A stretch of 64,000 bases of DNA, taken from Candidatus Cryosericum terrychapinii. GTDB lineage: Bacteria; Caldisericota; Caldisericia; Cryosericales; Cryosericaceae. Under the pieces are notes generated by a model that did not search any database, had not been told where the DNA came from, and worked only from the letters and a program-made list of their open reading frames with translations. The stretch spans positions 1 through 64,000 of the forward strand of contig NZ_QXIS01000032.1 of NCBI RefSeq assembly GCF_003570925.1. Direction: 5' to 3'. Of this stretch, positions 7,807 through 31,537 are shown piece after piece. Position numbers and translations under genes: made by a program. Every line of letters starts with the position of its first letter. The stretch's first letter is position 1.

Positions 7807-7835
7807 TATAACGCACATGAGGTCAGATATCCGAA
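7807..7835 (-). promoter_or_regulatory. ECF-type promoter motif f (anti-sigma gene)
   Basis: Minus strand: TTCGGA at 7830-7835, 16 bp, then CGTTATA at 7807-7813. It overlaps the 3' end of the sigma gene and stands directly before the anti-sigma gene, so it could give that gene its own promoter. It matches five other copies in box sequence and spacing. Confidence 0.65.
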
Positions 7836-8368
7836 AGCTTGCGGCGCAGCAGCCCATATGCATGATTGAGAGCTGCTGTCACTTTGCGCGGACGACATCC
7901 CAGTTCACGTGCAACGTCCCTCGTCGGCATTCGCCTAAGATGTCGCAATGTCACGCACGCACATTCAAAAGGGTTCAACGAACTGATAGCGTTCAGGATT
8001 TCGGGGGCATGCGCTTCGATATTCTTCACCATGTCATCATCGGGGTCGCTGCAGGCGATTTCGGTGACGCCGAGCAGTCCTTCTCGCCCCCTCCTTCGTA
8101 GTTCGTCCATCGCACGGTTACGCGCCACGCAGTACAACCATGGCAGCAGGGGGCGGCGTGTCGAGGCGAGCCAGCCGAGGTGGCTGGTGAGCCGTGCAAA
8201 CGTCTCTTCGGCAACGTCCTCGGCCAGGTCCCTGTCGTGCAGGATACTGAGAGCATAGGAGTAGATATGATGGTGATGGCGGCCGTATAGAACTGCAAAT
8301 GCACGCGAGTCCTCCCGTGCCAGTATCAGCAACTGCTGGTCGCTCTTCTCCTGCAGATTGGGTTCCAC
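7823..8368 (-). CDS. ECF-family RNA polymerase sigma factor
   Basis: A 181-residue sigma-70-like factor with only regions 2 and 4. Region 2 is seen in AFAVLYGRHHHHIYSYALSI, DRDLAEDVAEETFARL and RPLLPWLYCVARNRAMDELRRR; region 4 in LNPFECACVTLRHLRRM and TRDVARELGCRPRKVTAAL. The GTG at 8368 is chosen since GGAGG lies 5 bp upstream and the paralogue at 25688 starts at the matching residue; an upstream in-frame start at 8464 has no comparable support. It is followed by a membrane anti-sigma-like gene. The six TTCNGM-N16-CGTTATA motifs in this window are its best candidate targets. Confidence 0.85.
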   Translation of the reverse strand: MEPNLQEKSDQQLLILAREDSRAFAVLYGRHHHHIYSYALSILHDRDLAEDVAEETFARLTSHLGWLASTRRPLLPWLYCVARNRAMDELRRRGREGLLGVTEIACSDPDDDMVKNIEAHAPEILNAISSLNPFECACVTLRHLRRMPTRDVARELGCRPRKVTAALNHAYGLLRRKLSDI

Positions 8369-8525
8369 TCCCACCTCCAATATGAGTATACGCACAAGAC
8401 AACACAAAGACGAGCCAGCTAATAGCACACACGCTGTTTTGTCAGACAGTTGGCGCACAGACATGCTGGGAGACTGTGGACATACTAGGCAACAGGAGCA
8501 TATATTGGTGGAACATTCGTGGTGA

Positions 8526-8554
8526 TTCGGACATTCTGGACGATCTCCGTTATA
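8526..8554 (+). promoter_or_regulatory. ECF-type promoter motif a (lipoprotein 8668)
   Basis: TTCGGA at 8526-8531, 16 bp, then CGTTATA at 8548-8554 on the plus strand. It lies in the gap between the divergent sigma gene and the secreted protein starting at 8668. The -35 box is identical to that of motif f. The rest of the roughly 300-bp gap (8369-8667) shows no gene. Confidence 0.65.
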
Positions 8555-8667
8555 TAGATGAGAGGAGGTGAGATGGAGGTTTCAACAATGAGCAACAACA
8601 TCTCCTCCGGCGACATCACATGGGAACCAGAGGGATACGTGGTACCAAGAGACTAGAGGAGGACTTC

Positions 8668-9243
8668 ATGAAGAAGCGAATGCTTGGTATTGTGATCGCA
8701 GTAATGCTGGGAGTCAGTGGTTGTGTGGCAGTTGCTCTTGCGCACGCCTCACGGCCTGATGTCCATCCAGAGAATACGTCTCAGGGTTCTCTCACGCGCA
8801 GCGGCACGGAGTACTTCACTTCGAAGATTGCCGACTTCGGCATGGAACTCAAGCCCCTCGACGGGGTGCCGAGCGTTACCGAAGACACGGCCATTGCCAT
8901 CGCAAAGCGCGAAGTAGGCGGCATCGATACGACCGCGGTGGATGCGGAACATATCACGGCCATGTACACCAGTTTCTCCGACTACCCCGCAGGCCCGGGC
9001 GAGTCTCCCTTGACGTTGCCCGGGACAACCAGGGTCATGAAAGAAGTCCCCGTCTGGATCGTGACCTTTCACGGCGTGTACATACCCCATTCCGGTCCCT
9101 GTATGATCGATGCCAGTGGCAACCGGATTCCTTCGACCAGGGATCCATGTGTGTTCGGAGACGCGAATGTCGTCCTCGATGCCGAGACGGGTGAAGTGCT
9201 CGAAGGCTTCAGCTACAACACCCCACCGGCAGCTCAGAACTAG
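8668..9243 (+). CDS. secreted or lipoprotein of unknown function, PepSY-like end
   Basis: A 191-residue exported protein. MKKR, a hydrophobic stretch and VSGC suggest a lipobox, although a signal-peptidase I site after AHA is also possible. Near residue 60 a TEDTAIAIAKREVGG segment and the C-terminal ANVVLDAETGEVLEGF resemble PepSY-type repeats. Start 8668 is chosen because AGAGGAGG lies just upstream; an in-frame ATG at 8620 has no such site. Divergent from the ECF sigma gene and preceded by motif a, so it is a likely regulon member. Confidence 0.7.
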   Translation: MKKRMLGIVIAVMLGVSGCVAVALAHASRPDVHPENTSQGSLTRSGTEYFTSKIADFGMELKPLDGVPSVTEDTAIAIAKREVGGIDTTAVDAEHITAMYTSFSDYPAGPGESPLTLPGTTRVMKEVPVWIVTFHGVYIPHSGPCMIDASGNRIPSTRDPCVFGDANVVLDAETGEVLEGFSYNTPPAAQN

Positions 9244-9317
9244 TGTCGGTGGCTCACCCGCGAGTCGATTCTCAGCAATGCAACCGCATGTCATTTCGAT
9301 GTTTTCACGGAATGTGT

Positions 9318-9346
9318 TTCTGACTTTTGAGGGGATCTTCGTTATA
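9318..9346 (+). promoter_or_regulatory. ECF-type promoter motif b
   Basis: TTCTGA at 9318-9323, 16 bp, then CGTTATA at 9340-9346. It is followed 47 bp later by motif c in the same direction. Its flanks closely resemble motif a (GATCT immediately before the -10 region in both). Confidence 0.6.
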
Positions 9347-9354
9347 TGAGTGAA

Positions 9355-9380
9355 GGGAGAAGTTTTCAGCAATTTCTCCC
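9355..9380 (+). other. hairpin between tandem promoter motifs
   Basis: GGGAGAA at 9355-9361 pairs with TTCTCCC at 9374-9380. The hairpin falls at the predicted start of a transcript from motif b, and its loop contains the -35 box of motif c. It might attenuate the upstream transcript or make the two promoters interact. Confidence 0.4.
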
Positions 9381-9393
9381 CTATCGCGTTATA
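9365..9393 (+). promoter_or_regulatory. ECF-type promoter motif c
   Basis: TTCAGC at 9365-9370, 16 bp, then CGTTATA at 9387-9393. The TTCAGCAA core matches motif e exactly over 8 bp. It is expected to drive the small ORF at 9456 and/or the secreted protein at 9720. Confidence 0.6.
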
Positions 9394-9455
9394 GGTATGA
9401 AAGGGAATGGAAACGAGGCACGGGTCATGAGTGTGAGAGAGTAAGCACGAAGAGT

Positions 9456-9695
9456 GTGAGCCCCACTGCCGGAACTGCGGCAGGCGTTTCGTTCAAGGAA
9501 GACATCATTCGATGGGTGTGCAATGAGAAAGAATCAAGCTCAAGCAGTCTTACGAACGCTGTTGCATCCAGCCTGCAATGGATGGATTCCCAAGGAACAT
9601 GGCAGTCTGGATGGAATGGTGCCTATTTCTATGTCGTTCCGCCGGCATCTGCATCTTGGGTCACCCAGTATCAAAGTGTTTCCAGCAGTCAATGA
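9456..9695 (+). CDS. small hypothetical protein, possible gene remnant
   Basis: A 79-residue ORF from a GTG without a clear ribosome site, ending 24 bp before the next gene. The C-terminal half (SLQWMDSQGTWQSGWNGAYF) reads like real protein, with Ser-rich stretches on both sides. No family is recognised. The frame stays open upstream of the GTG, so the true start is uncertain, and it may be the tail of a decayed secreted protein. It lies downstream of tandem motifs b and c. Confidence 0.35.
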   Translation: MSPTAGTAAGVSFKEDIIRWVCNEKESSSSSLTNAVASSLQWMDSQGTWQSGWNGAYFYVVPPASASWVTQYQSVSSSQ

Positions 9696-9719
9696 GATGG
9701 CCGACACAAGGGAGGTTCC

Positions 9720-10205
9720 ATGAAGAGAAGAAGAGTACTGGGTTCACTTGCAGTGATGTGTGCGGTGCTGGTTGCTGCCACCCTGGTTTTTGTGAATGCG
9801 GGGCGTTTTCAGAGAGTCCCCAAGGCTGAAGCAGCACCGATCGAGATCGCAACAACGCTTCCGTCGTGGAAGGGCACGAGTCTTCGTGACATGGCGGTGA
9901 AGTGGGCCGCACTCTGCGGTGAAGAACATCCCACGGACATACGATTTGTGGAAACCACACGGCAAAAAGCAGCAAAACTGCTGCATGGCGCCAGAGTAGA
10001 CAGCGATAATGCCTGTTATGCGGTAGTTTTGCACGGGAATTTTGTCGACACAAAGGCGTTTACGCCCGATGGCCGAAGCATTTACGGAACGACGATGACT
10101 TTTATTGTTCGCAGTTCAGATGGGGCCATGACAGATTTTGGGCTCAACGATCTGCCATATGCTGATCTTGATACTCTGGGTACTGTCAAAGCCATTGCTC
10201 CATAG
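9720..10205 (+). CDS. secreted hypothetical protein
   Basis: A 161-residue protein with a signal peptide (MKRRRVLG, hydrophobic core to about residue 27). The mature part has no recognised domain; it contains two Cys (ALCGEEH and DNACYAVV), which could form a disulfide. A GGGAGG ribosome site lies 7 bp upstream of the ATG. It probably belongs to the motif b/c transcription unit together with the ORF at 9456. Confidence 0.65.
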   Translation: MKRRRVLGSLAVMCAVLVAATLVFVNAGRFQRVPKAEAAPIEIATTLPSWKGTSLRDMAVKWAALCGEEHPTDIRFVETTRQKAAKLLHGARVDSDNACYAVVLHGNFVDTKAFTPDGRSIYGTTMTFIVRSSDGAMTDFGLNDLPYADLDTLGTVKAIAP

Positions 10206-10220
10206 GGCGGACGCCTTCAA

Positions 10221-10347
10221 GTTCTGGCATTTCGGACCTTTTGTCCTGCAAGTTAGCAAAGACATCGCCACCGCGTTACACTATTGTCGGAGGGTGTGAT
10301 CTCCGCTGCGACGCCGCACCGATATGGCGTGCTGACCCGGGTTTCGA
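10221..10347 (+). other. conserved leader element, copy L1
   Basis: About 127 bp that align almost base for base with copies at 13879 and 36685: a GGCATTTC block, CCTGCAA, GGAGGGTGTGATCTCCGC, a CGCC/GGCG hairpin and GCTGAC. Two short hairpins are possible (GGAG/CTCC and CGCC/GGCG). It precedes the PQQ-like lipoprotein gene rather than one of the other paralogues, and lacks the extended GTTGGAGGCGCAT ribosome site of the others. Confidence 0.55.
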
Positions 10348-10386
10348 TTTGCCATTGGATCAAGAGAGAAGAAGAGGGGGCAAGAA

Positions 10387-12207
10387 ATGGACACGAACAG
10401 ACAATCACAGAAACGTGTATGGGTTATTGCAGGACTGCTCGTACTGGCACTGTCCAGTACTGCCATAACTGGATGCCAGAGTCGGACAGATCCAGCGACT
10501 GTTGAACCTCAGAACCAGACAACCTCCGGGATTGTTAACAGCACATTTGTCGATGTAGATGGCCTGTTTGTGACGCCCACGAAGGTTATCGTCTCGTACC
10601 CCACCGAGAATGTGGACTTGGGTTATGACGCTTGCGCCGGCGGGCCACAGCTGCTGGACGGTACTCTATATACGTTCACGTACCATGGCAGAAGTGACGG
10701 CTATGATGATACGTGGACGACAGCATGGGACCAGACAACGGGCAAGAAGCTCTGGTCGGCATGCACCAACGCAGACACACTCAGCAACGCCGCCTTTCAT
10801 TCGGATGGGAAGCACCTTTTCTATGTCAGTGCCGTTTTGAGTTTCGATAGCAAGTTATCCAGGACTGCAACATCCAGGTCTATCGCGTGTCTTGACAAGG
10901 CGACCGGCGCCATGCTCTGGAAGAATGACATGACGGTCGCCTCGCCATTCATGTTTCAATTTTACAGCGATATTGCCATGCATATCAACAAGCAGAGCAA
11001 CACGATTGACCGAGTCTACATTCTTGGCGAAGAGGTAGAGCAGTTGCCCCTTCCTCCAGATAATCAAACGACATTCCTGGAGGTGACGCCAAAGGTGCGC
11101 AATCCCGGCATCTACATCCTTGATGGAACCAACGGGAAGCTACTAGGTCGCATTGACTTGCCTGCACTTTTTACCGGCTCCCTCTACGGTGGACAGTTAC
11201 TGTGCGATGGCACAACATTATACGCCATTATCTCTGAATCTACTGAAGTTGAATCGCCTGCCGAGAGGTCTTTTCTTGTGGCATTTGACCTTACAAGGAA
11301 CAAGATGTTATGGAAAGAAAGTATTGATGGAGAAGGCACAGATCTCGTCAAGCAAGGCAACATACTAGTTTTCATTCACAGTGCTGCGAGTATTAATGAC
11401 TGGATCGACGTATGGCAGATCGATGCCACGGCAACTTCCGCTAAACGGCTCTGGACACGGAAAACTGGAGAGTCCCAGAGTGCGTACCATGTTTTCTCAT
11501 TCGCCGTTGACAATACGTTTGTCTATCTTCAAGGAGACAAGGGGACGCTTAGAGCTCTGGAACTCGCAAACGGGAATGAAGCATGGGAGCAACGGTTTGT
11601 ATCGTACAAAACAGGTGGATTGGATATGCCGCAAAATCTGTATCCAAATATGACTTTAACCATAACAAGAGACATTCTGTATGTTGAAGATGGTGGTGGA
11701 CTTGTAGCAGCTCTTGACCCTGCTACTGGCGACGAATTCTGGAACAAGCGTGTCTCTCAGGTGGGCTGGGGTCAGACTCATACCGCCAATATGTTTGTGA
11801 TGCAGGTGGTGGACAAAGGACTCCTTATCATTGCCTGGGATGGTAATGTCAAATTGTGGGCTATCGACGCAGAAAGTTCAGCGGCGGCAGAAAAAGTAAT
11901 CAAAGAATATTATAAGTGCGTGAATGAGAAAAATGCTGCTGGAATGAAACAATATACGATTCCCGGCTTGGGGAACCCGTGGGAATTTGATAAGCTTGAG
12001 TATGCGAACTTGATAAGCGTTAGTGAGAGACAATCGCGAGAAGCAGGCATGAAAGTATTTGTGGTCATACTTGATGTCAAATATAAGCAGGGAGATGCGG
12101 GAGGTTCAGTAGAACCCAGTGGAAAATACACTTGGTACTATCTACTGAAAAGAGACAACGCGACTTCTCCATGGCTCATCTGTGACTGGGGCGGCGATGA
12201 ATACTAA
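10387..12207 (+). CDS. PQQ-like beta-propeller lipoprotein
   Basis: A 606-residue exported lipoprotein: positively charged start, hydrophobic segment, lipobox AITGC near residue 30. Repeated blades with the pattern LDKATGAMLWK, TNGKLLGRI, FDLTRNKMLWKE, LANGNEAWEQ and LDPATGDEFWNK identify a PQQ-binding-like propeller (about residues 70-500). The last 100 residues (AAEKVIKEYYKCVNEKNAAG) look like an NTF2-like domain. It probably acts at the cell surface as a binding or scaffold protein. It follows leader copy L1. Confidence 0.7.
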   Translation: MDTNRQSQKRVWVIAGLLVLALSSTAITGCQSRTDPATVEPQNQTTSGIVNSTFVDVDGLFVTPTKVIVSYPTENVDLGYDACAGGPQLLDGTLYTFTYHGRSDGYDDTWTTAWDQTTGKKLWSACTNADTLSNAAFHSDGKHLFYVSAVLSFDSKLSRTATSRSIACLDKATGAMLWKNDMTVASPFMFQFYSDIAMHINKQSNTIDRVYILGEEVEQLPLPPDNQTTFLEVTPKVRNPGIYILDGTNGKLLGRIDLPALFTGSLYGGQLLCDGTTLYAIISESTEVESPAERSFLVAFDLTRNKMLWKESIDGEGTDLVKQGNILVFIHSAASINDWIDVWQIDATATSAKRLWTRKTGESQSAYHVFSFAVDNTFVYLQGDKGTLRALELANGNEAWEQRFVSYKTGGLDMPQNLYPNMTLTITRDILYVEDGGGLVAALDPATGDEFWNKRVSQVGWGQTHTANMFVMQVVDKGLLIIAWDGNVKLWAIDAESSAAAEKVIKEYYKCVNEKNAAGMKQYTIPGLGNPWEFDKLEYANLISVSERQSREAGMKVFVVILDVKYKQGDAGGSVEPSGKYTWYYLLKRDNATSPWLICDWGGDEY

Positions 12208-12260
12208 TATGCAGCGTGCTGACGGCTCTGGTGACCAGGTTCCACTCCAAGACTGGGCCG
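12206..12260 (+). other. partial leader element, copy L5
   Basis: Only the second half of the leader is present (GTGCTGACGGCTCTGGTGAC then CAGGTTCCA), lying between the PQQ-like gene and the small membrane protein. It lacks the upstream hairpins and the usual GGAGGCGCAT ribosome site. Confidence 0.45.
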
Positions 12261-12276
12261 AAGAATGGGGGCGTTC

Positions 12277-12741
12277 ATGAGTGATCAGGAAGACCCCATA
12301 AGAACCACAGTCAAACAGGTGCACCAATGGACGACCCTAGACAAACAGAAACTAACCAAGCTTTCTTCAAGGCGACGTGCTCGTTGGGCGATTGTCCTTG
12401 CAACCTGGGTAGCGACACATGTGCTGCTGTTCTGGTCACTAGACCTGGGGCCGGCGGTAACAACAGCAGATGCGACCTCGCACGTTTCCTTGGGATTGCC
12501 GTTTCCCTTCCTGTATCAGGATCAGGCGTGGCAGTATTGGGACAAAGTCCCCATGAGAGCCCATTTCGTTTCTCCTTACGAGTTTCCCACCCATATGATC
12601 TTGCCCAACTACTTTCTTGATCTCGCCTTGGTTTGGGGAAGTCTCCTCCTGATCACATTGCTGATCCTGTGGGTGATACGAAAAGTAAGACTTCTGAAGG
12701 CGTATATCTTGCTTAAGACGCCGCATGATACGGCGCGCTGA
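12277..12741 (+). CDS. small membrane protein of unknown function
   Basis: A 154-residue protein with two transmembrane segments (WAIVLATWVATHVLLFW near residue 40 and LALVWGSLLLITLLILWVI near 120) and an outside loop of about 60 residues. No family is recognised. ATG 12277 or 12265 may be the start; neither has a strong ribosome site. Its last codons (TPHDTAR) are read from the first hairpin of leader copy L4, so the gene's 3' end appears to have been formed or replaced by that repeat. Confidence 0.55.
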   Translation: MSDQEDPIRTTVKQVHQWTTLDKQKLTKLSSRRRARWAIVLATWVATHVLLFWSLDLGPAVTTADATSHVSLGLPFPFLYQDQAWQYWDKVPMRAHFVSPYEFPTHMILPNYFLDLALVWGSLLLITLLILWVIRKVRLLKAYILLKTPHDTAR

Positions 12742-12805
12742 CGGCTGTGGGGACCGGGTTTCAATTCACCATACTTGTTGAAGGCACGTGTTGGAGGCGC
12801 ATAGT
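12719..12805 (+). other. leader element, copy L4 (shortened)
   Basis: Contains the CGCCG/CGGCG hairpin, CGCGCTGACGG, GGGACCGGGTTTCA and the downstream TTGAAGGCACGTGTTGGAGG block ending at an ATG. The first part of the long leader is missing, and its 5' end overlaps the coding end of the preceding gene. Confidence 0.55.
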
Positions 12806-13309
12806 ATGAGCACAGACAGATTGGTCAGATTCATCGCTGTCGGTATAGTCTTGTTGCTCGTTGTCTCTATTGCCGGGTTTTTCTTGTATCGGGCACCCAC
12901 AAGGTCGTTGCCGAATGAAGCGGACATCAACGCGATCTACCAGGTTGTCGGTGAATTTGGGGCGCGCCTGAAGGATGTGGTCATCACCACGTCCGACCAG
13001 AACGTGATTACCGCGGTGGACTTCAACTTGAAGCAGCTCATTACTGACCGACTGTATCAGGTATTTGTGCAGGACAAGATCAGGATCCCAGGAAGATACG
13101 TGTCAAGCCCATGGCCGGAACGCATTGAGATTGTCTCCGTACAGATGCTGGATAGCGGGTCTTACACGGTGAACGGAAGCCAAATCGTGATGACCGACGA
13201 TACACTGGCTCACGGCGGCAATGCAGGAGAGACACCCATCACACTTACGCTCAAGAAGGTCAACGGCACATGGCTTATTGACGACGTGACGGGAGGACCA
13301 AAGGCATGA
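12806..13309 (+). CDS. membrane-anchored NTF2-like family protein (module N)
   Basis: A 167-residue protein with one N-terminal transmembrane anchor (LVRFIAVGIVLLLVVSIAGF) and an outside domain ending in GNAGETPITLTLKKVNGTWL, an alpha-beta pattern suggesting an NTF2-like fold. The start is the ATG after GTTGGAGGCGCATAGT; the in-frame TTG upstream lies in that ribosome site. A paralogous domain forms the N terminus of the protein at 38472, and a deletion derivative sits at 14051. Function unknown. Confidence 0.65.
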   Translation: MSTDRLVRFIAVGIVLLLVVSIAGFFLYRAPTRSLPNEADINAIYQVVGEFGARLKDVVITTSDQNVITAVDFNLKQLITDRLYQVFVQDKIRIPGRYVSSPWPERIEIVSVQMLDSGSYTVNGSQIVMTDDTLAHGGNAGETPITLTLKKVNGTWLIDDVTGGPKA

Positions 13310-13335
13310 CAAGCGTACTGTTGGAGGCGCATACC

Positions 13336-13869
13336 ATGACAACAACGAAATCACGATCCTGTTCAATAACGGCTACGTTCATGATCGTCCTGCTTGCAGT
13401 GGTTCTTGTGGCGGGTTGCTCGCCAAGAGTCGTTGGAACAGTTGAGGTTCCCGTGGGAGATGACTTGACGACGCCTAGTGCGGAAGGAACGTCTGTGTCT
13501 CCCTATGGAGATATCATTGCTCTGTCAATTCTCAAGGAAGAAGGGAAATATCCTTCAGACTTCTCTGTCACTGTGAAGGTTCTGGAAGTTCTCAATACGA
13601 GATCCGTCAGAGGGGAGATTATGCCTCCTATTCCATTTGGGGAGCTGCAGCAAGGGAACATGATATATCTCTATCTCTGTACTCCCTTGTCAGAGAAGGC
13701 AGACAAGCTTTCCGACGGCACGATAGTGTACAAGGGCAACGGATATCCGCAGATCGTTGCCGCAAGACACTATGATGTGACCGGAGTTCTCCAGCCTGGT
13801 TGGCAAGATTATCCTTTTGTCTACGTTCCCACCGCGAGTCAGATCAAGCAGACTTCATCGGGGAACTAG
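13336..13869 (+). CDS. lipoprotein, module A
   Basis: A 177-residue lipoprotein with lipobox VAGC near residue 29. The mature domain starts VEVPVGDDLTTP and continues through FSVTVKVLEVLNTRSVRGEI to GYPQIVAARHYDVTGVLQPG. The same domain occurs internally in the larger protein at 36863 (VPVGDDMATQ, VKVINVLDTRTIRVEI, YSISGVLQPYW). The start follows a GTTGGAGGCGCATACC ribosome block identical in style to its neighbours. No known family is recognised. Confidence 0.65.
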   Translation: MTTTKSRSCSITATFMIVLLAVVLVAGCSPRVVGTVEVPVGDDLTTPSAEGTSVSPYGDIIALSILKEEGKYPSDFSVTVKVLEVLNTRSVRGEIMPPIPFGELQQGNMIYLYLCTPLSEKADKLSDGTIVYKGNGYPQIVAARHYDVTGVLQPGWQDYPFVYVPTASQIKQTSSGN

Positions 13870-13878
13870 AGTCGGATC

Positions 13879-14050
13879 GGCATCTCTAACTCTCTCCTGC
13901 AGATCAGTCAAAATATCATCACTGTGTTACGCTTGTGGTGGAGGGTATGATCTCCGCTGCGACACCTTATGGATGCGGCATGCTACCGACTCTGGTGACC
14001 GGGCTCCTGTCCACCACTCTCGTTGAAAGTACGTGTTGGAGGCGTATCTC
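13879..14050 (+). other. conserved leader element, copy L2 (full length)
   Basis: Full-length copy of about 170 bp: CCTGCAGATCAGTCAAAA, GGAGGGTATGATCTCCGC, GCTACCGACTCTGGTGACC, GTCCACC and CGTGTTGGAGGCG directly before the start at 14051. The GGAG/CTCC hairpin is kept, but the CGCC/GGCG hairpin is broken here (CACC/GGCA). Confidence 0.55.
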
Positions 14051-14272
14051 ATGAATACGAACGGACTAGTCAGGTTTATTGCAGTAGGCATCGTGTTGCT
14101 GCTAGTGATCGTTTCTGTCCAGAAGGAGGACGACACGTCGTACACAGTAAACGGAAAGATTATCGGGATGACCAGCGTTGAGATGACGCAGGGCGGTAAT
14201 GCGGGAGAGACATCCATTACGTTCACGCTCAAGAAGGTCAAGGGCACATGGCTCATTGATGAGGTGAAGTGA
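14051..14272 (+). CDS. internally deleted copy of module N protein
   Basis: A 73-residue ORF joining the transmembrane anchor (LVRFIAVGIVLLLV) directly to the last third of the module N domain (YTVNGKIIGM, GGNAGETSITFTLKK, GTWLIDEV). Compared with the 12806 protein about 90 residues are missing in frame. It keeps a full leader and ribosome site and so is probably expressed, but may be a decaying duplicate. Confidence 0.55.
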   Translation: MNTNGLVRFIAVGIVLLLVIVSVQKEDDTSYTVNGKIIGMTSVEMTQGGNAGETSITFTLKKVKGTWLIDEVK

Positions 14273-14299
14273 CGCGACAACTCTCCTTATACGATAAGG

Positions 14300-14366
14300 A
14301 GCCGATGCTGGCAACTGGGTTCCTGTCCACTGCTTCTAATGAAAGCACCCGTTGGAGGCATGCAAC
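14300..14366 (+). other. leader element, copy L7 (diverged)
   Basis: CCGATGCTGGCAACTGGGTT, CCTGTCCACT, GAAAGCACCCGTTGGAGG, then the ATG at 14367. An 8-bp hairpin (CTCCTTAT/ATAAGGAG, 14281-14299) lies just 5', where other copies have the CGCC/GGCG hairpin: different bases, but still paired. Confidence 0.5.
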
Positions 14367-15506
14367 ATGAAAACAACGAAATCACGATCCTGTTCAATGG
14401 TCGTCACGTTCATGAGCATCCTGCTTGTCATAGTTCTTTTGGCAACAGGTTGCGCACAGAAAGTTGTTAAAGTAGAAGGACCACAGATCAACATGATGCT
14501 GGAAACCAATTTCACATCGTCGGAATACGATGCGAGTTCACTTCTTCTGTGGAATATTGGGCAAAACACACTGCAGAGCTCTGACACATCCGTCGTACAT
14601 GTGAGTGATTTCAATAATGGGGGAATACTGTGCTGGCAACCTGGTTCACCCGTTCGAGTCGTTCAACAATGGAGTTACCTGAGCAAGAAACCACTCTTGA
14701 CGACGACATCCAAGGATGTGGATCTTCTGGTTCCACCCGCGGGGATGCAGTACTTGGTCAGAAAAGATGGTGGTATCAGACGGTGGTATGCTTCAGACGA
14801 GAATGCTTTTGTGAGCGTTCCCGCGCAACCAGGTTTACTCAATGAGACGCCTGGCACTAAGACTATCACAATAACAGAGCAGGGCGTTGCTTCCGGTTCA
14901 AAGGCACAGATACTGACTGTCCCCCTTCCCTCTGGGCTTACGCAGATGGTCGTGGAATATGGAAGCGGCAGCATTGAAAAGGGATTTGTTCTCTTTGATG
15001 CAACAGAGCCCAACGCGACGTTGCCGCGCTTCATCTTGCTTCTTCGTCTGAACAGCGGTAAAGCAACGTGGTTATGGTGCGACGACGCATTCGGTGGAAT
15101 CATTACTTCAGACCAGGGTTCGAGTTTTGCACGTGTCGGATCACTCCTCTATTTTACTCATACTGATATGAAAATCGGTTGCATTGATACATCAGCGACC
15201 TCGCTTTCAGTAACATTGCCAGAAACAATCAATACGCTCCTCGCCAAACTTCATCGTGAACAGCCTACCGATGCTCCGTACAATGTGCAGGCTCAGCTGG
15301 CAAGCGACAATGGTACGTTGATTATTGAGTATCCCGATGCCAATTGGAACGGTCTGTATTATGCCGTAGACGCATCTGGAACAGTTCTTGGAAGCCTTCG
15401 TTCAGACAAGACTTCGATAACAAGTTTTGACGCGAAGGGGAAGCAGGGCTCCTCCATTAACACACCAGGGAGTATCTCCTCTCCTTCCATCGGCCTCTTT
15501 CAATAG
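14367..15506 (+). CDS. lipoprotein, module B
   Basis: A 379-residue lipoprotein with lipobox ATGC near residue 29, then KVEGPQINMM and a beta-rich domain: VRVVQQWSYLSKKPLLTT, RRWYASDENAFVSVP, QAQLASDNGTLIIEYPD, TSITSFDAKGKQGSSI. It is closely similar along its whole length to the C-terminal two thirds of the protein at 36863. No database family is recognised. The start is set by the upstream GTTGGAGG block. Confidence 0.65.
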   Translation: MKTTKSRSCSMVVTFMSILLVIVLLATGCAQKVVKVEGPQINMMLETNFTSSEYDASSLLLWNIGQNTLQSSDTSVVHVSDFNNGGILCWQPGSPVRVVQQWSYLSKKPLLTTTSKDVDLLVPPAGMQYLVRKDGGIRRWYASDENAFVSVPAQPGLLNETPGTKTITITEQGVASGSKAQILTVPLPSGLTQMVVEYGSGSIEKGFVLFDATEPNATLPRFILLLRLNSGKATWLWCDDAFGGIITSDQGSSFARVGSLLYFTHTDMKIGCIDTSATSLSVTLPETINTLLAKLHREQPTDAPYNVQAQLASDNGTLIIEYPDANWNGLYYAVDASGTVLGSLRSDKTSITSFDAKGKQGSSINTPGSISSPSIGLFQ

Positions 15507-15560
15507 GATGTTTCATAAGCATCACGCATAGCGAAGGACTCATCCCTGTTCATACAAGAG

Positions 15561-15587
15561 CCGGATCAGATACACTGATCCGGTTTT
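15561..15587 (+). terminator. Rho-independent terminator
   Basis: A 9-bp stem, CCGGATCAG (15561-15569) with CTGATCCGG (15575-15583), 5-base loop, then TTTT. It ends the lipoprotein island transcript. Confidence 0.8.
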
Positions 15588-23912: not shown

Positions 23913-23924
23913 AAGTCTCTCCGC

Positions 23925-25586
23925 TTAGTAGTTGAAGTAGCTGTTGCCGATGAACTCGCGGATGATGGACGTGCTGGGAATGACGTCGATGTCCATTACC
24001 GGCAGAAAGTAGTCAAGGAACCGGATCAGCCGGCGTGCCTCGGAATACTCGGGCACCGTGTTGTCGATCTGCAGCAGAAGCTGCATGGCATAGTTTTTGA
24101 GGAAGGCTAGCTCGTACACGAGCGATGAGTTGAACATGGCGTCGGCGTTCTCCTGGAAGGGGAAGATGTGCCGTTCCTCACCCATGCGGACCGAGTGCCA
24201 TATCTGCAGGGTCTGAAGGGCTGAGTACCCACGGAAGTTGTGGTCACGCACCATACGCCGCAGGATGCGCACGTCGGTCGTCGGGATTCGGTTGTCGGCG
24301 TCCAGATTGAGGAAGGTGAGGGCCGAGACGTAGATGCGATACTTGGCGCTGTCCGGTATCTGGGATGTCAGCTTCGGGTTCAGGCCATGGATACCCTCGA
24401 CGACGAGGATGGTACGGTTGTTGGGGACGATGGTATCGCCAGTTTCGGTGGAGGTCCCGGTCTTGAAGCTGTACTTCGGTCGGGTGACAGTCTCCCCGGC
24501 CAGGATACGGTTGAGGTCGTTGTTGAACCGCACCGTGTTGAGCGACTCCAGGCACTCGAAGTCAGGCTTGCCCTCCGGGTCCAGGGGGTTCTTGTCGCGG
24601 TCGACGAAGTAGTCGTCCAGCGAAATGGCATGAGGGTCGAAGCCGTTGACCCTGAGCTGCAGGGCCAGCCGCTTACTGAACGTCGTCTTCCCGGACGAGG
24701 ACGGGCCCGCAATGAGGACCAGGTGGGCTCCCGAGGCCGTAACGCGATCGGCCAGCTGCGCGATCTTTTTCTCATGCAGCATCTCGCTCACCATGATGAG
24801 CTCGCGGGTGCGGCCGCTGGCAACGACACTGTTGAGGTCTCCTGCCGTTTCCACGCCGATGATGCGTCCCCACTCCTCTGCCTCGTCGAAGATGTCGGCC
24901 AGCTTGGCCTGAGGCACGTAGTCCGGCAGAGCGGTGGGACTGGTGATGCCGGGGAAGACGAGCACCATGCCGGTACGGTAGGGGATGAGGTCGAAGAGCG
25001 GAGTATCACCGGTGCTGTGTGGCATGAAGCCGTAGAAGTAGTTGGGGTGCTTGCCCAGGTAGTAGATGTTGACGGTGGACTTACTGCGGTAGCGTAGCAG
25101 CTCGGCTTTGTCGTGCATGCCCAGGTTCTCCAGCAGCTGCAGGGCGTCCCACTTGTACAGTTCCTTCTTCTGGTACTCTACGTCTTGGTCGATGAGCTCG
25201 TGCATGCGCTGCTTGATCTGAGCGATCTCGTCGTCGGTCACGCGCGTCTCGCGGAAGTCGCAGAATAGGCCCTGTCCCAGCGAATGAAGGACCCGGAGCC
25301 TCCGGTCGGGAAAGAGGTCACGTGCTGCAGCGTACAGGATAAACACGAGACCGCGCTGGTAGATGCGTGCGCCGTCTTCGACGCTCATGTCGATGAAGCG
25401 GATGGTGGCGTCGTGCTTCAGCGTCTTGAACAGCTCACGGATGTCGTTGTTGACGCGTGCCGCCATGATGCGTGACGTGTGGTATGCTGCGTAATCCTTT
25501 GCCAGCGAGTCCAGACGGACCCCTCGCGGGCACAGGACGTCCTCGCCGGTCTCCTCTATGTGCAGTCTGATCATCTCTGTCGCCAT
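23925..25586 (-). CDS. TGS domain-uridine kinase family protein
   Basis: A 553-residue fusion. Residues 1-70 form a TGS domain, 70-270 a threonyl-tRNA-synthetase SAD-like region (DLFPDRRLRVLHSLGQGLF), and 285-553 a uridine kinase/phosphoribulokinase-type domain with Walker A GPSSSGKTTFSKRLA, ISLDDYFVDRDK and VVEGIHGLNPKL. It probably phosphorylates a nucleoside or related substrate, with the TGS/SAD part regulating or binding RNA or ligand. Length fits the known fused family. No C-terminal catalytic synthetase domain is present. Confidence 0.83.
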   Translation of the reverse strand: MATEMIRLHIEETGEDVLCPRGVRLDSLAKDYAAYHTSRIMAARVNNDIRELFKTLKHDATIRFIDMSVEDGARIYQRGLVFILYAAARDLFPDRRLRVLHSLGQGLFCDFRETRVTDDEIAQIKQRMHELIDQDVEYQKKELYKWDALQLLENLGMHDKAELLRYRSKSTVNIYYLGKHPNYFYGFMPHSTGDTPLFDLIPYRTGMVLVFPGITSPTALPDYVPQAKLADIFDEAEEWGRIIGVETAGDLNSVVASGRTRELIMVSEMLHEKKIAQLADRVTASGAHLVLIAGPSSSGKTTFSKRLALQLRVNGFDPHAISLDDYFVDRDKNPLDPEGKPDFECLESLNTVRFNNDLNRILAGETVTRPKYSFKTGTSTETGDTIVPNNRTILVVEGIHGLNPKLTSQIPDSAKYRIYVSALTFLNLDADNRIPTTDVRILRRMVRDHNFRGYSALQTLQIWHSVRMGEERHIFPFQENADAMFNSSLVYELAFLKNYAMQLLLQIDNTVPEYSEARRLIRFLDYFLPVMDIDVIPSTSIIREFIGNSYFNY

Positions 25587-25687
25587 TGTAATGCCTCCTG
25601 ACTTCTCAGTCTACGCGTCAGAGCGGTCTGAGCAAGAGTGACGGCCCAGGCAAACCGGCTATACTGTCAATTGTGGCGGGGGTGAGC

Positions 25688-26278
25688 GTGGTGGAGGGCA
25701 AGTCCGATCAAGATCTCCTGAAGGAGGCACTAAGCGACACCGGAGCAGTAGCCGTGCTGTACGATCGATATCGCGACCGCATCTTCGCATGTCTCATCCG
25801 CACGGTGATGGACCGAGACCTCGCGGAGGAACTGACTGAAGCCGTGTTCGTCAAGATGGTGGACAACCTTCCGAAACTTGCACGCGGCAGAGCACCCTTG
25901 GTGCAGTGGCTCTTCCGTGTCGCCAACAACGAGGCCATGTCATGGTTCCGCCATCGCCGCAGCGCAGACAGATATTTGGCAACTGCTCGCATTGGTGATG
26001 ATGACGCCGACCCCGACTACGACGACTTGGTCGCGGAGGCTCAGGGTCATGCCGGCGAATTGCGTGTTGCCGCCGAGAAGCTGGCACCCTTCGACCGAGA
26101 GTGTGTCATGCTGCGCTACGGCGAGGGATTGACACCACGGGAGATCGCACCGATGCTCGGTTGCAGCGCAAAGCAGGTCAGCAACGCTCTTCAGCATGCC
26201 TTTCGTGTGTTGCGTGCCGGCATTTCAGCAAATCCGGGCGGGTTGCGTTGTCCTCATGAAGAGGAGGTGAGAGAATGA
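25688..26278 (+). CDS. ECF-family RNA polymerase sigma factor (paralogue)
   Basis: A 196-residue sigma factor paralogous to the one at 7823. Region 2: DRDLAEELTEAVFVKMVDNL, LVQWLFRVANNEAMSWFRHR; region 4: LAPFDRECVMLRYGEGLT, PREIAPMLGCSAKQVSNAL. GTG 25688 is chosen because GGGGG lies 5 bp upstream and it aligns with the paralogue's start; GTG 25673 is possible. It overlaps the anti-sigma-like gene by 4 bp (ATGA), so the pair is translationally coupled. No CGTTATA-type motif is seen upstream. Confidence 0.85.
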   Translation: MVEGKSDQDLLKEALSDTGAVAVLYDRYRDRIFACLIRTVMDRDLAEELTEAVFVKMVDNLPKLARGRAPLVQWLFRVANNEAMSWFRHRRSADRYLATARIGDDDADPDYDDLVAEAQGHAGELRVAAEKLAPFDRECVMLRYGEGLTPREIAPMLGCSAKQVSNALQHAFRVLRAGISANPGGLRCPHEEEVRE

Positions 26279-27138
26279 CTCAAAAAGAACTGGAACATCT
26301 GCTCGAGAACGTGGACTGGGAGTCGAAGGTCGACCCGTTGTGGGCTGAGGCCAGTCGGCGGCGTCTCGTTGCATATGCCGACCGGGTGGGGGTACACCGC
26401 CGCCATGTGCAGCATTGGCGTCTGACGTTGGGTCCCGCTCTCGCCATCGTGCTGGTTGTCCTCTGGTGGACCCAGACGGCACCCCTGCGCACGGCCATCC
26501 ATGCTACTGCACAGCTACCCGACAGCGTCCGCCTGCTGCAGGAGACGCAAAAAGGAACATCCAGCTCTGACTTGGTAGAGTCACCGCTACGCCAGACGTG
26601 GAACAACCTGATTGCGCTGGTCACCCCTGGAGCACGTTTGGCTGTGGTCACCGATGCAAGGCGGGATTCTGCAACAGGCTTGGTCCGCGCGACAGTGCGC
26701 GGTACGGATGGGTACATTCTTGTTGACCCTCATTCGAAGTCCCTGGTAGGAGTCGTTGGGATGAGCGTCCCGAGCGACACGCATACGCAGGAGCCGTCCA
26801 TCCCTCTCTTTGTCCGACTGGAGCTGGCGCGGCAAATTGCCATGGCCGATCCTGTAGTGCAAGAGAGCGGCCGTCAGGCAGTAGCGGTCTCTTCCCTGAC
26901 TGTGTATCATCTCCAGTCCACAACTCGTGCGTCCTCTTCTTCACAACAGCCTGCTGCCTCAGGAACGTTCGTTGCCGTACGCTTGCAGCAAGTCAGCGAG
27001 ACCGATCCCGATCTGACAGCAATCGTGAATACTGTCGAAGGACGCGTCGTCCAAGTCGTCAACACAACTCAGTTAAAAGGACTGGTGATCAGCGACTTTG
27101 CCGGAGCATATGCTGTTGTAGATAAGCAGGGCAGCTAG
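26275..27138 (+). CDS. membrane anti-sigma-like partner (paralogue)
   Basis: A 287-residue protein with a short cytosolic N terminus (LEHLLENVDWES), one transmembrane segment at about residues 50-66 and a large outside domain, paralogous to the 6883-7788 product. Outside repeats such as GYILVDPHSKSLVGVVG and VVQVVNTTQLKGLVISD are shared. No zinc-binding HxxxCxxC is present. Its overlap with the sigma gene supports an anti-sigma or sensor role. The ribosome site GAGGAGGTGAGAGA is strong. Confidence 0.62.
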   Translation: MTQKELEHLLENVDWESKVDPLWAEASRRRLVAYADRVGVHRRHVQHWRLTLGPALAIVLVVLWWTQTAPLRTAIHATAQLPDSVRLLQETQKGTSSSDLVESPLRQTWNNLIALVTPGARLAVVTDARRDSATGLVRATVRGTDGYILVDPHSKSLVGVVGMSVPSDTHTQEPSIPLFVRLELARQIAMADPVVQESGRQAVAVSSLTVYHLQSTTRASSSSQQPAASGTFVAVRLQQVSETDPDLTAIVNTVEGRVVQVVNTTQLKGLVISDFAGAYAVVDKQGS

Positions 27139-27149
27139 CCCAGCTGAAG

Positions 27150-27686
27150 TCATTGACCACTGGGACCGCCAGATTCCTGCCAAGTTGTGCTATAGGAGAC
27201 ACGTGAAGAGGAACTTGAAGTGATCAGATAGCCGATGACGGACCAGATCTTGGTCTGCTCTGTGCCAAGGAGTTGCCGCAGCCTGAAGACGACGACGTCC
27301 TTTTGCTGTGAAAATGTTACCAGAAACAAACGATCTCCATTCTTTGGATCCTTTCCCTCATCCTGGATGGACTGAACGTGTGTGATGTTTAAGTTTTGAG
27401 TGTGTAGATCGAAAGAACCCTCTCCCGAAGCATCCGTTGCAACAAAAGAGGTCAGGGTCTTCCGTGGATCCAGAAGGTCAGAACGTTTGCCGCTGTCTGC
27501 CAATTTCTGGGCTTGTTGCAATTCCTCGTGAGAATACGAAATGTGTACCCAGGGGTCAAGCACAGGACGGGGCTTTGGTGTGTACCAAGGCCGCCATGCC
27601 AGCAGCAGAATGACGAGCGTTACCAGTGGTGCAAGTACAATCAGTGCAGTTCGGAGTTTCTTCTTCATATGTCGTCTCGTCGTCAT
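27150..27686 (-). CDS. membrane-anchored hypothetical protein
   Basis: A 178-residue protein with an N-terminal anchor (LIVLAPLVTLVILLLAWRPW) and an outside domain of about 140 residues with no recognised family; SVIGYLITSSSSSR near the C terminus is Ser-rich. It is convergent with the second anti-sigma-like gene. A GAGAGGTGA ribosome site precedes the ATG. Confidence 0.55.
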   Translation of the reverse strand: MTTRRHMKKKLRTALIVLAPLVTLVILLLAWRPWYTPKPRPVLDPWVHISYSHEELQQAQKLADSGKRSDLLDPRKTLTSFVATDASGEGSFDLHTQNLNITHVQSIQDEGKDPKNGDRLFLVTFSQQKDVVVFRLRQLLGTEQTKIWSVIGYLITSSSSSRVSYSTTWQESGGPSGQ

Positions 27687-27738
27687 GTTGGTTTCACCTC
27701 TCGCAGTGTACCATGAATTCCAGCCAGCGTGCAGCCGT

Positions 27739-28548
27739 TCAGCTTCCGGAACGGGGCAGCAGCATCAACGGGTCGACGGGTGTTCCGTCGCGGCGTATTT
27801 CGAAGTGCAGATGGGGCCCAGTGCTGAAGCCCGTAGAACCTGACAGTCCGATGACTTCACCTTTGCTGACCGATTGTCCGGTGTGCACGCCAATGTGGCT
27901 CAGGTGGCCGTAGATGGTGGACAGGTGTGTCCCGTGACGTATGACGACGCAGTAGCCGTATCCCAGTTTGTTGCCACGCCAGACGATAACACCACGCGCG
28001 GTTGCCATGACCGGCGTACCGGCTGCCGCAACCAGGTCGACGCCGTGATGCTCAAGCTCCTGGCCAATAATGGGATGTTCGCGCAGGCCAAATGGCGACG
28101 TGACGACAAGCGTGCCAAGGAGCGGAGGAACAAACTGCTGTGGCGTTGGCAGCAGCAAGACTTGCCACTCCCGTGTCTGTGTCGCAGCACGACGGAAGAA
28201 GGCATCCTCCAGAGTCAGTTCGTGTTCCATGGCAGCGGGGTCCTGAGCCGATATCGCGTTCCACGTTGCCTGTTCGGCGTCCCGAGCCCGAATGGAGGCG
28301 ATCGGATGCTGAATACTGAACGGCGTGTTGAGCGTCGGAGGCGTGACATCTCCGCGCGCAGCCGCCTGCGACCGGTACCACATCAGTGATCCGATCGCAA
28401 GGATCAGGACAAGGACAACGGTCAGGCATCCCTTTCTGCGCCGATGCGTCCGCGGTGGAGACCTGTGCTGTGTCTGGTGAGGATCTGGAACATAGAACGC
28501 AGATGAACCGTAGTATGTGTCCGTTTTTCCTGGTTGTTTCTGATTCAT
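27739..28548 (-). CDS. M23 family metallopeptidase (LytM-like)
   Basis: A 269-residue protein: short cytosolic N terminus rich in Pro, Arg and His, a transmembrane anchor (GCLTVVLVLILAIGSLMWY), linker, and an M23 domain with TSPFGLREHPIIGQ, HHGVDLVAAAGTPV, YGYCVVIRHG and TGFSTGPHLHFEI. All expected zinc ligands are visible, so peptidoglycan hydrolysis outside the membrane is likely. It is preceded by ECF motif d about 100 bp upstream, placing it in the proposed envelope-stress regulon. Confidence 0.87.
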   Translation of the reverse strand: MNQKQPGKTDTYYGSSAFYVPDPHQTQHRSPPRTHRRRKGCLTVVLVLILAIGSLMWYRSQAAARGDVTPPTLNTPFSIQHPIASIRARDAEQATWNAISAQDPAAMEHELTLEDAFFRRAATQTREWQVLLLPTPQQFVPPLLGTLVVTSPFGLREHPIIGQELEHHGVDLVAAAGTPVMATARGVIVWRGNKLGYGYCVVIRHGTHLSTIYGHLSHIGVHTGQSVSKGEVIGLSGSTGFSTGPHLHFEIRRDGTPVDPLMLLPRSGS

Positions 28549-28650
28549 ATCTGTTTTACGCCCTTTCGAAAGAGTGGCTATGAGTGGTTTACTGCATTAT
28601 GTTGACGACGATTGCACCCTCTGCAGGTATTCACATCACCCCTTCACCTC

Positions 28651-28679
28651 TATAACGCAATGTGCCTGCTTTTGCTGAC
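28651..28679 (-). promoter_or_regulatory. ECF-type promoter motif d (M23 peptidase)
   Basis: Minus strand: GTCAGC (28674-28679), 16 bp, CGTTATA (28651-28657). Motifs d and e share CATTGCGTTATAGAGG across the -10 region although they precede unrelated genes, which supports a functional element. Confidence 0.68.
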
Positions 28680-28720
28680 GAGATCTGCGCGTACTGTTCT
28701 GCCAGAGTTCGAAGGCGCAG

Positions 28721-29644
28721 TTACTTCTTTTCTTCCTGGATCGCTTGCAGGAAGGTTGTCTCCAGAGTGTCTCGATCCGGGGTGATGGATTCAATGCTGG
28801 CTCCTGCCTGTACCAGATCACGAAGGGCAGCAGGAACAGGGACGGCGGTACCAACCATTCCTCCTTGCACCCCGTCTTTCTGGGAAAGGGTTGCCTGATG
28901 CTGAGCAGCCCACTGTTGGACCAGTGACCAGTCCTTGGCACCACTGACCTGCAGATCAAACCCATGGTAGGGAACAGGATCATTCTTGCTCATCTGACGC
29001 AGGACATGGCCTTGCTTGACAATGGCCACGCGGTCACAGACCTGTTCTACCTCATTAAGGAGATGACTTGCCAGGAAGATGGCAACCCCTTGATCTGCCA
29101 GATGCCGGATATTACTGCGTAGTTCTGCGACACCCTGAGGGTCCAGTCCATTGGTAGGTTCGTCCAGCAGGAGGAGCCGTGGTTTCTCCATGATGGCCTG
29201 GGCGAGCCCCAAGCGTTGACGCATTCCCAGGGAGTATCTCCCTGCCGGGGTCTTGTTGGCTGGGTCCAGCCCCATGAGTTCCATAGTGGCATCAACTTCC
29301 GGAAGGCCGATGACCCCACGGATGGAGGCAAGCAGTTGCAGGTTGCGTCTTCCGGTCAGCTCGGGGATAAAGGAGGGATACTCCACAAGGACCCCGATCC
29401 CTGTCGGCAGCTGGGCATTCCTGACCGTCAGGTCTGTCCCAAGGATCGTGACCTTTCCTTTCGTGGGATGTGCCAGACCGCACATGATACGGAGCAATGT
29501 CGTCTTCCCTGCTCCGTTGGGACCAATGAATCCAAAGACTTCCCCTGCATCCAGGGTCATGCTGACATCATGCAGGACTTCATGCACTGTCTTGCGGGAC
29601 CGATACTGCTTGCAGATCCCTGTTAGTTCACATACATGTTCCAT
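28721..29644 (-). CDS. ABC transporter ATP-binding protein (exporter type)
   Basis: A 307-residue ATPase with Walker A GPNGAGKTT, signature SLGMRQRLGLAQ, Walker B LLLLDEPTNGLDP and the H-loop ASH. The C-terminal extension is typical of antimicrobial-peptide exporters of the BcrA type. It is the last gene of a three-gene minus-strand unit with two permeases. Given motif e before that unit, envelope protection is a reasonable guess. Confidence 0.88.
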   Translation of the reverse strand: MEHVCELTGICKQYRSRKTVHEVLHDVSMTLDAGEVFGFIGPNGAGKTTLLRIMCGLAHPTKGKVTILGTDLTVRNAQLPTGIGVLVEYPSFIPELTGRRNLQLLASIRGVIGLPEVDATMELMGLDPANKTPAGRYSLGMRQRLGLAQAIMEKPRLLLLDEPTNGLDPQGVAELRSNIRHLADQGVAIFLASHLLNEVEQVCDRVAIVKQGHVLRQMSKNDPVPYHGFDLQVSGAKDWSLVQQWAAQHQATLSQKDGVQGGMVGTAVPVPAALRDLVQAGASIESITPDRDTLETTFLQAIQEEKK

Positions 29645-29660
29645 GACATATCTCCTTTCA

Positions 29661-30530
29661 TTACAGGTCTACATACCGTGCAGAGAAATATCCCAATGCT
29701 GACCATATCACGCAAAGAATGCCAAAGACGATGACAGATGCGGCAACGGGGAACGGATAGAGGGCTGCTGTTATTTTTGAGTCGGCCCATTGCCAGTGCT
29801 GTGTGAGTTGAAGCTGCGTCGAAAAGAAGAATCGGCCGCCTCCTGGCGAAAAACGGGTCACTCCACCTTGCAGACTCATGTCTACCATTAATATCCAGAC
29901 AACCGGGATGAAAACGGCGACAGTTTGACGCCACCATATGGAGATCACGACGGACAGCAGGGCTATGCCACACAGGGCCGGTGCCAGGTACCCAATGAGG
30001 CCTGCGAAGAACAGGGGTGGGCTAAGTGGCATGTTTGGAAGAAAATGATAGGCACGGAAGCTATATACTTGGTTTATGGTGCTGGTCAGGAAGGGACTGA
30101 ACGACGTGCTGGCCGGCAGAAAGAGAAGAGCAACCCCCAAACTGATGACAACTGCCGCTCCAACAAAGGCAACAGCCGCCAGAAACAAAGCTGGGATCAA
30201 TGATACAAACCAGGTTGCCCGGTTGCGGGTACGGGAAACCAGCATGGGCAACCGGCCGGCGTGCTCGTCCCTCAGGAAAGCGTCGCCAACAAGGAACACG
30301 AATGTCGTAACCAGAATGATAATCATCATGATATCGGCGCACAGCATTTGGACAGGAACGTCCCAGATGTTTGCGGGAGCGGAAATGTAATACTTGGTGA
30401 GAAGGTACGAAATCCTATCCTTACGGTCAAGAACGACTGCCAGTGCCAGGAATGCATCAATCACCAGGACGAACAGCCATCGCTTGCTGGAAAACAACCG
30501 ACTACACTGGTACCGCATCATGCAAAACAT
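29661..30530 (-). CDS. ABC transporter permease
   Basis: A 289-residue membrane protein with about six hydrophobic segments (FVLVIDAFLALAVVL, MLCADIMMIIILVTTFVFL, SVIVFGILCVIWSALGYFSA) in the ABC-2 exporter arrangement. It lies 16 bp upstream of its ATPase and 60 bp downstream of a second permease. Primary sequence is poorly conserved, so assignment rests on topology and context. Confidence 0.72.
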   Translation of the reverse strand: MFCMMRYQCSRLFSSKRWLFVLVIDAFLALAVVLDRKDRISYLLTKYYISAPANIWDVPVQMLCADIMMIIILVTTFVFLVGDAFLRDEHAGRLPMLVSRTRNRATWFVSLIPALFLAAVAFVGAAVVISLGVALLFLPASTSFSPFLTSTINQVYSFRAYHFLPNMPLSPPLFFAGLIGYLAPALCGIALLSVVISIWWRQTVAVFIPVVWILMVDMSLQGGVTRFSPGGGRFFFSTQLQLTQHWQWADSKITAALYPFPVAASVIVFGILCVIWSALGYFSARYVDL

Positions 30531-30590
30531 CGTCAGGGCCTCCTTGGAACAAGGTACAGTATCACGACCATCTCGTTCATCGCATTGCTC

Positions 30591-31349
30591 CTATGCATCT
30601 TCCTGCTTCCCGTAGGCAATGATGGCAACGGTGGCCGCTACCAGCAACCAGATCAAGAAATACATAAACCGACCCGACATGGTCCCCCTTTCCAGTGCCA
30701 GAATCCGAGATGGATTCCACTGCTGAGCACTTTCAGGTATCGTGACCATCGCGACAAAGATGGCGAGTGCGGGAACAATGCTGACGACAAAAGGAATCGG
30801 CACCCACACAGCCAGGAGCAGGGCAGTCGTCGAGTAGGCTGCGGCCGCCAGCAGGTCAACTCCTGCGAATTGGGCTGCAAACCACCATGGATGTGCAAGA
30901 TACGAGGCATGATCGGCAGGGTTGATATTGGCGAACTCACTTGTGCTAACTGTGGGTGCTAGTCCTTTCATGTGCGCCGCTGCCACGGCGGCGACAGCCA
31001 GCGACATTGTCAGAAGCAGACAGATAGCGATCGCCATCCCAATACCTTTGGCAACAATATATCTTCGACGTGTCAACCCCCGCGTGAGCACAAAGGTGGC
31101 CCAGGACGTATGGCGGTCGATCGCAAAGGAATCTCCGACAGCCAGCCCGGTAATGATGGGAAGTTCCCATGGGAGATTTGCCATGAGAGCGATCATGAAG
31201 TCTGCTGGTGCCGATCCAGGATGAACGCGCGTTGTGTTTAGACTGATGATATATACGAGAATTGCTGCGAGTGCTGCTGCCAGGATCCAGAATCTTCTGC
31301 GTGACAGCAGCCGTCTTAGCTCTTCTGCAACCATATGGATGACTACCAT
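30591..31349 (-). CDS. ABC transporter permease
   Basis: A 252-residue membrane protein, first gene of the exporter unit, with about six transmembrane segments (FWILAAALAAILVYIISL, GIGMAIAICLLLTMSLAVAAVA, FVVSIVPALAIFVAMV). The gene has an AGGAG site 5 bp upstream of its ATG. It is expected to pair with the 29661 permease as a heterodimer. Motif e lies about 160 bp upstream. Confidence 0.72.
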   Translation of the reverse strand: MVVIHMVAEELRRLLSRRRFWILAAALAAILVYIISLNTTRVHPGSAPADFMIALMANLPWELPIITGLAVGDSFAIDRHTSWATFVLTRGLTRRRYIVAKGIGMAIAICLLLTMSLAVAAVAAAHMKGLAPTVSTSEFANINPADHASYLAHPWWFAAQFAGVDLLAAAAYSTTALLLAVWVPIPFVVSIVPALAIFVAMVTIPESAQQWNPSRILALERGTMSGRFMYFLIWLLVAATVAIIAYGKQEDA

Positions 31350-31508
31350 TGTAACTCCTGTGATGTCCCCGGCGTCTCTACGTGTTTCACGTATTACTCC
31401 TTTCTTGCGGTGAAGTTGCCCCCATTACTGGGTCAAATGTCTTAACAAGCCAGAACGTTTCAGTCATTTCCTATCCTTCTACACGCATTTGCCTTACTCC
31501 CTCGCCTC

Positions 31509-31537
31509 TATAACGCAATGGGTTAGATTTTGCTGAA
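31509..31537 (-). promoter_or_regulatory. ECF-type promoter motif e (ABC exporter)
   Basis: Minus strand: TTCAGC (31532-31537), 16 bp, CGTTATA (31509-31515). It is the best-conserved copy, with TTCAGCAAAA and CATTGCGTTATAGAGG. The predicted leader to the first permease is about 150 nt. Confidence 0.68.

Follow-up and report, generated by a model that had tools for sequence, protein, structure and literature searches.

Among the described systems close to the arrangement presented here is the RpoE/RseA pair of Escherichia coli, an envelope-stress ECF system. Inside its sigma gene lies the sigma-dependent promoter rseA P3, which transcribes the anti-sigma gene, and positive feedback comes from another sigma-dependent promoter that precedes rpoE (PMC8595263). 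Positive autoregulation is the usual case for ECF sigma factors, and AAC is the usual core of their -35 elements (PMC8103513). EcfG1 and EcfG2 of Alphaproteobacteria resemble the present case in being sigma paralogues of one genome with different promoter sets; they serve the general stress response and are not organised in paired membrane anti-sigma operons, and by this description they are set apart (PMC8103513). For the phylum Caldisericota no study of a sigma-factor regulon was found in the literature searched.

Here, we describe two paralogous pairs of an ECF sigma factor and a presumed anti-sigma factor, together with two classes of promoter-like sites, in the window, i.e. the whole 64-kb stretch of DNA that was analysed (Table 1). 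As in E. coli, a predicted promoter inside the sigma gene would serve the anti-sigma gene, but here it occupies the extreme 3' end of that gene, and the regions upstream of the sigma genes yielded none. Considering which motifs there are, how they divide into classes, that they are conserved and where they lie, we infer, with a probability of about 0.72, two ECF systems with negative feedback, each with promoters of its own: SigA (encoded at 7823) would recruit RNA polymerase to those of class A and SigB (25673) to those of class B. A signal would free the sigma factor from its membrane anti-sigma factor, and the freed sigma factor would transcribe genes of surface and secreted proteins and also the gene of its anti-sigma factor, the latter from the promoter in which the sigma gene ends; the locus 9318/9365 would carry both promoter classes in tandem. 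This would provide a testable regulatory map for Caldisericota, the phylum of Candidatus Cryosericum, a bacterium of permafrost and sediment that has been little studied, and a related sigma pair with apparently different -35 specificity, from which one could learn how DNA is read by sigma4.

Table 1. Features of the two putative sigma/anti-sigma systems and their candidate promoters and targets (positions in the window).
Feature	Position	Strand	Evidence
antiA, membrane protein, presumed anti-sigma factor	6883..7803	-	paralogous to antiB
candidate class A promoter, sigA/antiA junction	7807..7835	-	score 25.7 with matrix A vs 5.4 with matrix B
sigA, ECF sigma factor	7823..8464	-	Pfam, NCBIfam, orthologues
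candidate class A promoter, PepSY-type secreted protein gene	8526..8554	+	37.5 vs 2.5 bits, leave-one-out
secreted protein, PepSY-like domain	8620..9243	+	PepSY 22.7 bits, just below cut-off 24
candidate class A promoter of tandem	9318..9346	+	matrix A; site also in G003
candidate class B promoter of tandem, 47 bp downstream of 9318	9365..9393	+	34.0 vs 3.8 bits
secreted-protein gene remnant	9456..9695	+	sequence comparison with G003 L058:6295-7026(-)
class C promoter-like site	10252-10280	+	related to class B
class C promoter-like site	13904-13931	+	related to class B
sigB, second paralogous ECF sigma factor	25673..26278	+	Pfam Sigma70_r2 and r4_2 above cut-off
candidate class B promoter facing antiB, inside sigB 3' end	26224..26252	+	18.9 with matrix B vs 6.9 with matrix A
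antiB, presumed anti-sigma factor of sigB	26275..27138	+	paralogy to antiA; low-confidence model
M23 peptidase	27739..28548	-	Pfam Peptidase_M23, 119 bits
candidate class B promoter, M23 peptidase gene	28651..28679	-	pattern and matrix B
ABC-2 type exporter, two permeases and ATPase	28721..31349	-	Pfam search
exporter ATPase	28721-29644	-	
candidate class B promoter, ABC exporter operon	31509..31537	-	pattern and matrix B
class C promoter-like site	36715-36743	+	related to class B

An earlier note on this DNA had listed six sites with the pattern TTC[AGT]G[AC], 16 bp, CGTTATA. All of them are present at the positions and on the strands given there, five as exact matches and the one at 28651 with the deviating G that had been mentioned; one further site (26224), within the 3' end of the second sigma gene, had been overlooked. 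The heptamer CGTTATA occurs seven times in the window, in six cases with TC.G[AC] exactly 16 bp upstream, and the same pair at other spacings (10-15 or 17-22 bp) was found nowhere in the window. For NTCNGM-N16-CGTTATA the six observed occurrences compare with 0.017 per 64 kb in first-order Markov simulations of the window, and if up to two mismatches are allowed in the pattern of the note, 10 sites are found vs 2.75 expected by chance. Chance is not an explanation of six near-perfect sites. Throughout the assembly (1.49 Mb, 37 contigs, 81% complete), which was scanned by pattern searches, the full matrix scan being applied to the window, a loose pattern yields 10 matches vs 2 of the reversed control, and six of these 10 fall inside the window.

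In most sites the -10 element reads CGTT[AGC]TA at exactly 16 bp, which is the CGT type and the fixed spacing of canonical ECF promoters; unlike those, the -35 elements of class A (TTCNGACATT) and class B (KTCAGCAAA) are without the AAC core, and the predicted autoregulation is not placed upstream of the sigma gene. The sites are largely intergenic or at gene junctions, but the -35 of 7807 overlaps the last sigA codons (..LSDI-stop) and only its -10 is non-coding. Largely as had been claimed, they face anti-sigma-like and envelope genes. They are conserved in relatives. The view that they are bipartite ECF-like promoters with a fixed 16-bp spacing is supported, and ECF-type promoters are the best explanation of the six sites.

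Class A (TTCNGACATT...GATCTNCGTTATA, or YTCNGAYATY-N5-GATNTNCGTTVTA in the alignment of all sites) comprises 7807, 8526 and 9318, and class B (KTCAGCAAA-N7-CCATTGCGTTATA) comprises 9365, 28651, 31509 and 26224. Common to both are the -10 CGTTATA and the 16-bp spacing, whereas the -35 and the bases adjoining the -10 differ together. In 15 Cryosericum genomes the class A pattern has 27 matches with up to three mismatches and the class B pattern 21 with up to two, the reversed controls giving 0 in both cases. For a held-out test matrices were built from non-junction sites only, and each site at a sigma/anti-sigma junction was then scored with both. The six sigA junctions were all recognised as class A (13.6-28.7 bits with matrix A vs -2.4 to 8.1 with matrix B) and all six sigB junctions as class B (17.7-33.2 bits with matrix B vs 2.1-11.7 with matrix A), with margins of 11-29 bits. 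When the window is scanned with the full matrices, its seven sites reach 32.8-44.4 and the runners-up 16.0 and 13.3, and simulated 64-kb sequences have a mean best score of about 10 and a maximum of 19, but these window scores are partly circular because the window sites went into the full matrices, which is not the case in the held-out junction test. It is mainly because of the latter that 7807, 8526 and 9318 are putatively assigned to SigA and 9365, 26224, 28651 and 31509 to SigB. A single regulon read by the sigma factor at 7823, as proposed originally, is not supported, there being two paralogous pairs and sites that split into two classes matching their own junctions; 9365, 28651 and 31509 seem better assigned to the sigma factor at 25673 than to that at 7823.

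The sigma factors are 38% identical to each other and antiA and antiB 27%. SigA matches Pfam Sigma70_r2 above the cut-off (49.6 bits) and Sigma70_r4_2 slightly below it (21.5 bits, cut-off 25.7), and homology sets in about 30 codons into the frame, which is probably the true start. Both SigA and SigB pass the NCBIfam sigma70-ECF model (59.4 and 65.3 vs cut-off 42.9), and the solved protein chains closest to them are ECF sigma factors. The best named ECF model for both is the BldN family (NCBIfam TIGR02952), but their scores (77.3 and 73.8 bits) are so far below its cut-off of 206.45 that they are not members. Orthologues of sigA (54-89%) are present in six other Cryosericum genomes (G001, G002, G003, G005, G006, G009) and those of sigB in G001, G003, G006, G008, G009, G011 and G014; in a scan with the sigma alignment the closest relatives were Candidatus Cryosericum species and Caldiserica MAGs.

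Searches of antiA and antiB in Pfam, NCBIfam, PDB folds and PDB-sequence profiles revealed no known anti-sigma domain or fold, antiA having no match at all in Pfam or NCBIfam and the profile search of the two candidates against PDB sequences yielding no match. The structure model of antiA, which is of low confidence, consists of N-terminal helices, a long helix that runs through the putative transmembrane segment, and a domain at the C-terminus, and matched no PDB fold below E 0.001; a likeness to amine oxidase or a vibriolysin prodomain in the PDB fold search was weak and was dropped. It is only from position and topology that we infer an anti-sigma function of antiA and antiB.

At the sigA junctions the spacing of the site is kept although the sigma stop codon shifts from species to species. 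The anti-sigma start codon follows 18 nt past the -10 in all sigA systems compared, and accordingly placed is the probable start of antiA, the ATG at 7788. For antiB the start codon is at +22. The -10 of 26224 reads CGTTGTC here vs CGTTATA in C. odellii; most sigB junctions have this deviating -10, and the sigB loci of G008 and G009 are without the -35 and do not have this site. The codons of I-S-A-N and R in the sigB site are identical in 6 genomes, against a background in which the codon is unchanged for 44% of the conserved residues; this points, if modestly, to a constraint other than that on the protein.

Autoregulation, which is known for ECF sigma factors together with their anti-sigma genes, appears here to concern the anti-sigma gene only: a site of the own class faces the anti-sigma gene, but no A or B site is located upstream of any of the 15 sigma genes (best score 5.5 bits vs 13.6-33.2 at the junctions), where a positively autoregulated ECF operon has a promoter of its own type. 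Feedback would thus act on the anti-sigma gene alone. Since sigma synthesis would not be boosted by its own promoter type, the loop would represent negative feedback (a homeostat) instead of the usual positive ECF loop. If the sites are promoters, active sigma factor would raise its own anti-sigma factor and not itself, which suggests ECF circuits built for pure negative feedback.

The M23 peptidase and the ABC exporter that had been seen downstream of 28651 and 31509 are annotated here from Pfam; the exporter permease 30591-31349 has a weak ABC-2 match below cut-off and the other (29661-30530) no Pfam match. Of the secreted-protein loci only the first is as described: 8526 precedes a secreted-protein gene that probably starts at MKKRMLG, and the site is kept upstream of the PepSY-type homologue in relatives, but 9318/9365 precede a gene remnant, the homologue of which is intact in G003 (243 aa). 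In the tandem of G003 the A site is kept and the -10 of the B site is degenerate, and in G002 the A site has a 15-bp spacer. The genes downstream of class A sites encode secreted proteins, of PepSY type and others, and in one case, on contig 37, a protein of the LCP family; class B sites in the window and in relatives are followed by ABC-2 permease operons, M23 peptidases, an HlyD-type protein and small secreted proteins; lipoproteins are also among the listed targets. Such surface and secreted targets would fit an envelope role for the regulons. The class A site on contig 37 of G000 (L014:4426-4454(-)) lies 129 bp before its LCP-family gene, in a repeat-like stretch common to G000, G008 and G010.

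The presence of sites follows the presence of the sigma factors. Class A sites occur in 7 of 7 genomes with sigA and in 3 of 8 without, and non-junction class B sites in 5 of 8 genomes with sigB and in 0 of 7 without (1 of 7 if the B-like tandem site of G002 is counted). The one-sided hypergeometric p is 0.019 for class A and 0.019 for class B without the G002 site, as calculated by hand and ignoring the kinship of the genomes. Class A sites but no sigA were found in G008, G010 and G011, the last being 97% complete. Several class B sites share long flanks (an upstream terminator-like hairpin and the leader), so that some copies are duplications and not independent evidence.

Paralogous ECF sigma factors can cross-talk. 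It is conceivable, if unlikely, that all six sites are served by a single sigma factor, or by either of the two without distinction, and that the classes are only variation within one regulon; such cross-talk would agree with this, as would the common -10 and spacing and the class A sites in three genomes where only sigB or neither sigma factor was found. Against it, the classes are separated by more than 11 bits at every held-out junction site tested, and where the -35 changes, the bases before the -10 change with it. The shared flanks of the class B sites and the repeat-like surroundings of the contig 37 site could also mean that the motif is no sigma promoter but an operator bound by a different regulator, or a segment conserved within cassettes that were duplicated. 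This we regard as quite unlikely, for the junction sites have only the motif in common, and the motif is directional and bipartite with its fixed 16 bp, and a Shine-Dalgarno sequence and start codon follow at constant distance (+18 in antiA, +22 in antiB).

Most sites are conserved across species and have intact genes after them, which makes it very improbable that these are relics of a decaying regulon in which some promoters have lost their functional gene, even if the remnant after 9318/9365 and the degenerate -10 at the sigB junction of most species are in line with such decay. Two separate sigma systems remain the preferred reading, although the -35 without the typical AAC core, the class A sites of genomes in which no sigA was found, the imperfect sigB junctions, the duplicated class B copies, the lack of a match of antiA and antiB to any known anti-sigma domain or fold and the existence of a related third class (class C) in genomes without either sigma factor count against it.

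In 10 of 14 class B leaders a Shine-Dalgarno sequence and an ATG about 20 (12-33) nt past the -10 are followed by a stop within 3-6 codons, the predicted minipeptides being MRVEG, MRAEG, MHAEG, MSVEKY and MSGKE; examples in the window are 31470-31508(-) and 9394-9445(+). That class B transcripts carry a translated minigene as a layer of translational control upstream of each target gene is a doubtful proposition and may serve as a lead only, because some of the leaders are duplicates and about one random start in five would meet a stop as early as this. The class C sites (TTAGCAAAAACATC...CCGCGTTACA) stand before genes of one family, which code for secreted proteins or lipoproteins, and their leader is strongly conserved over about 110-120 nt after each site. 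A structured RNA was considered for these leaders but is not supported, since covariation does not stand out clearly from shuffles (47/500) and most fold z-scores are near 0; Rfam contains no RNA family matching there. On contig 4 of G000 an intergenic TTCCGC-N16-CGTTATA (L011:4973-5001(+)) is located 23 bp before an ORF and fits neither class A nor class B. Elsewhere in the window a molybdenum cofactor riboswitch (RF01055, 67 bits) is found at 47588-47705(-).
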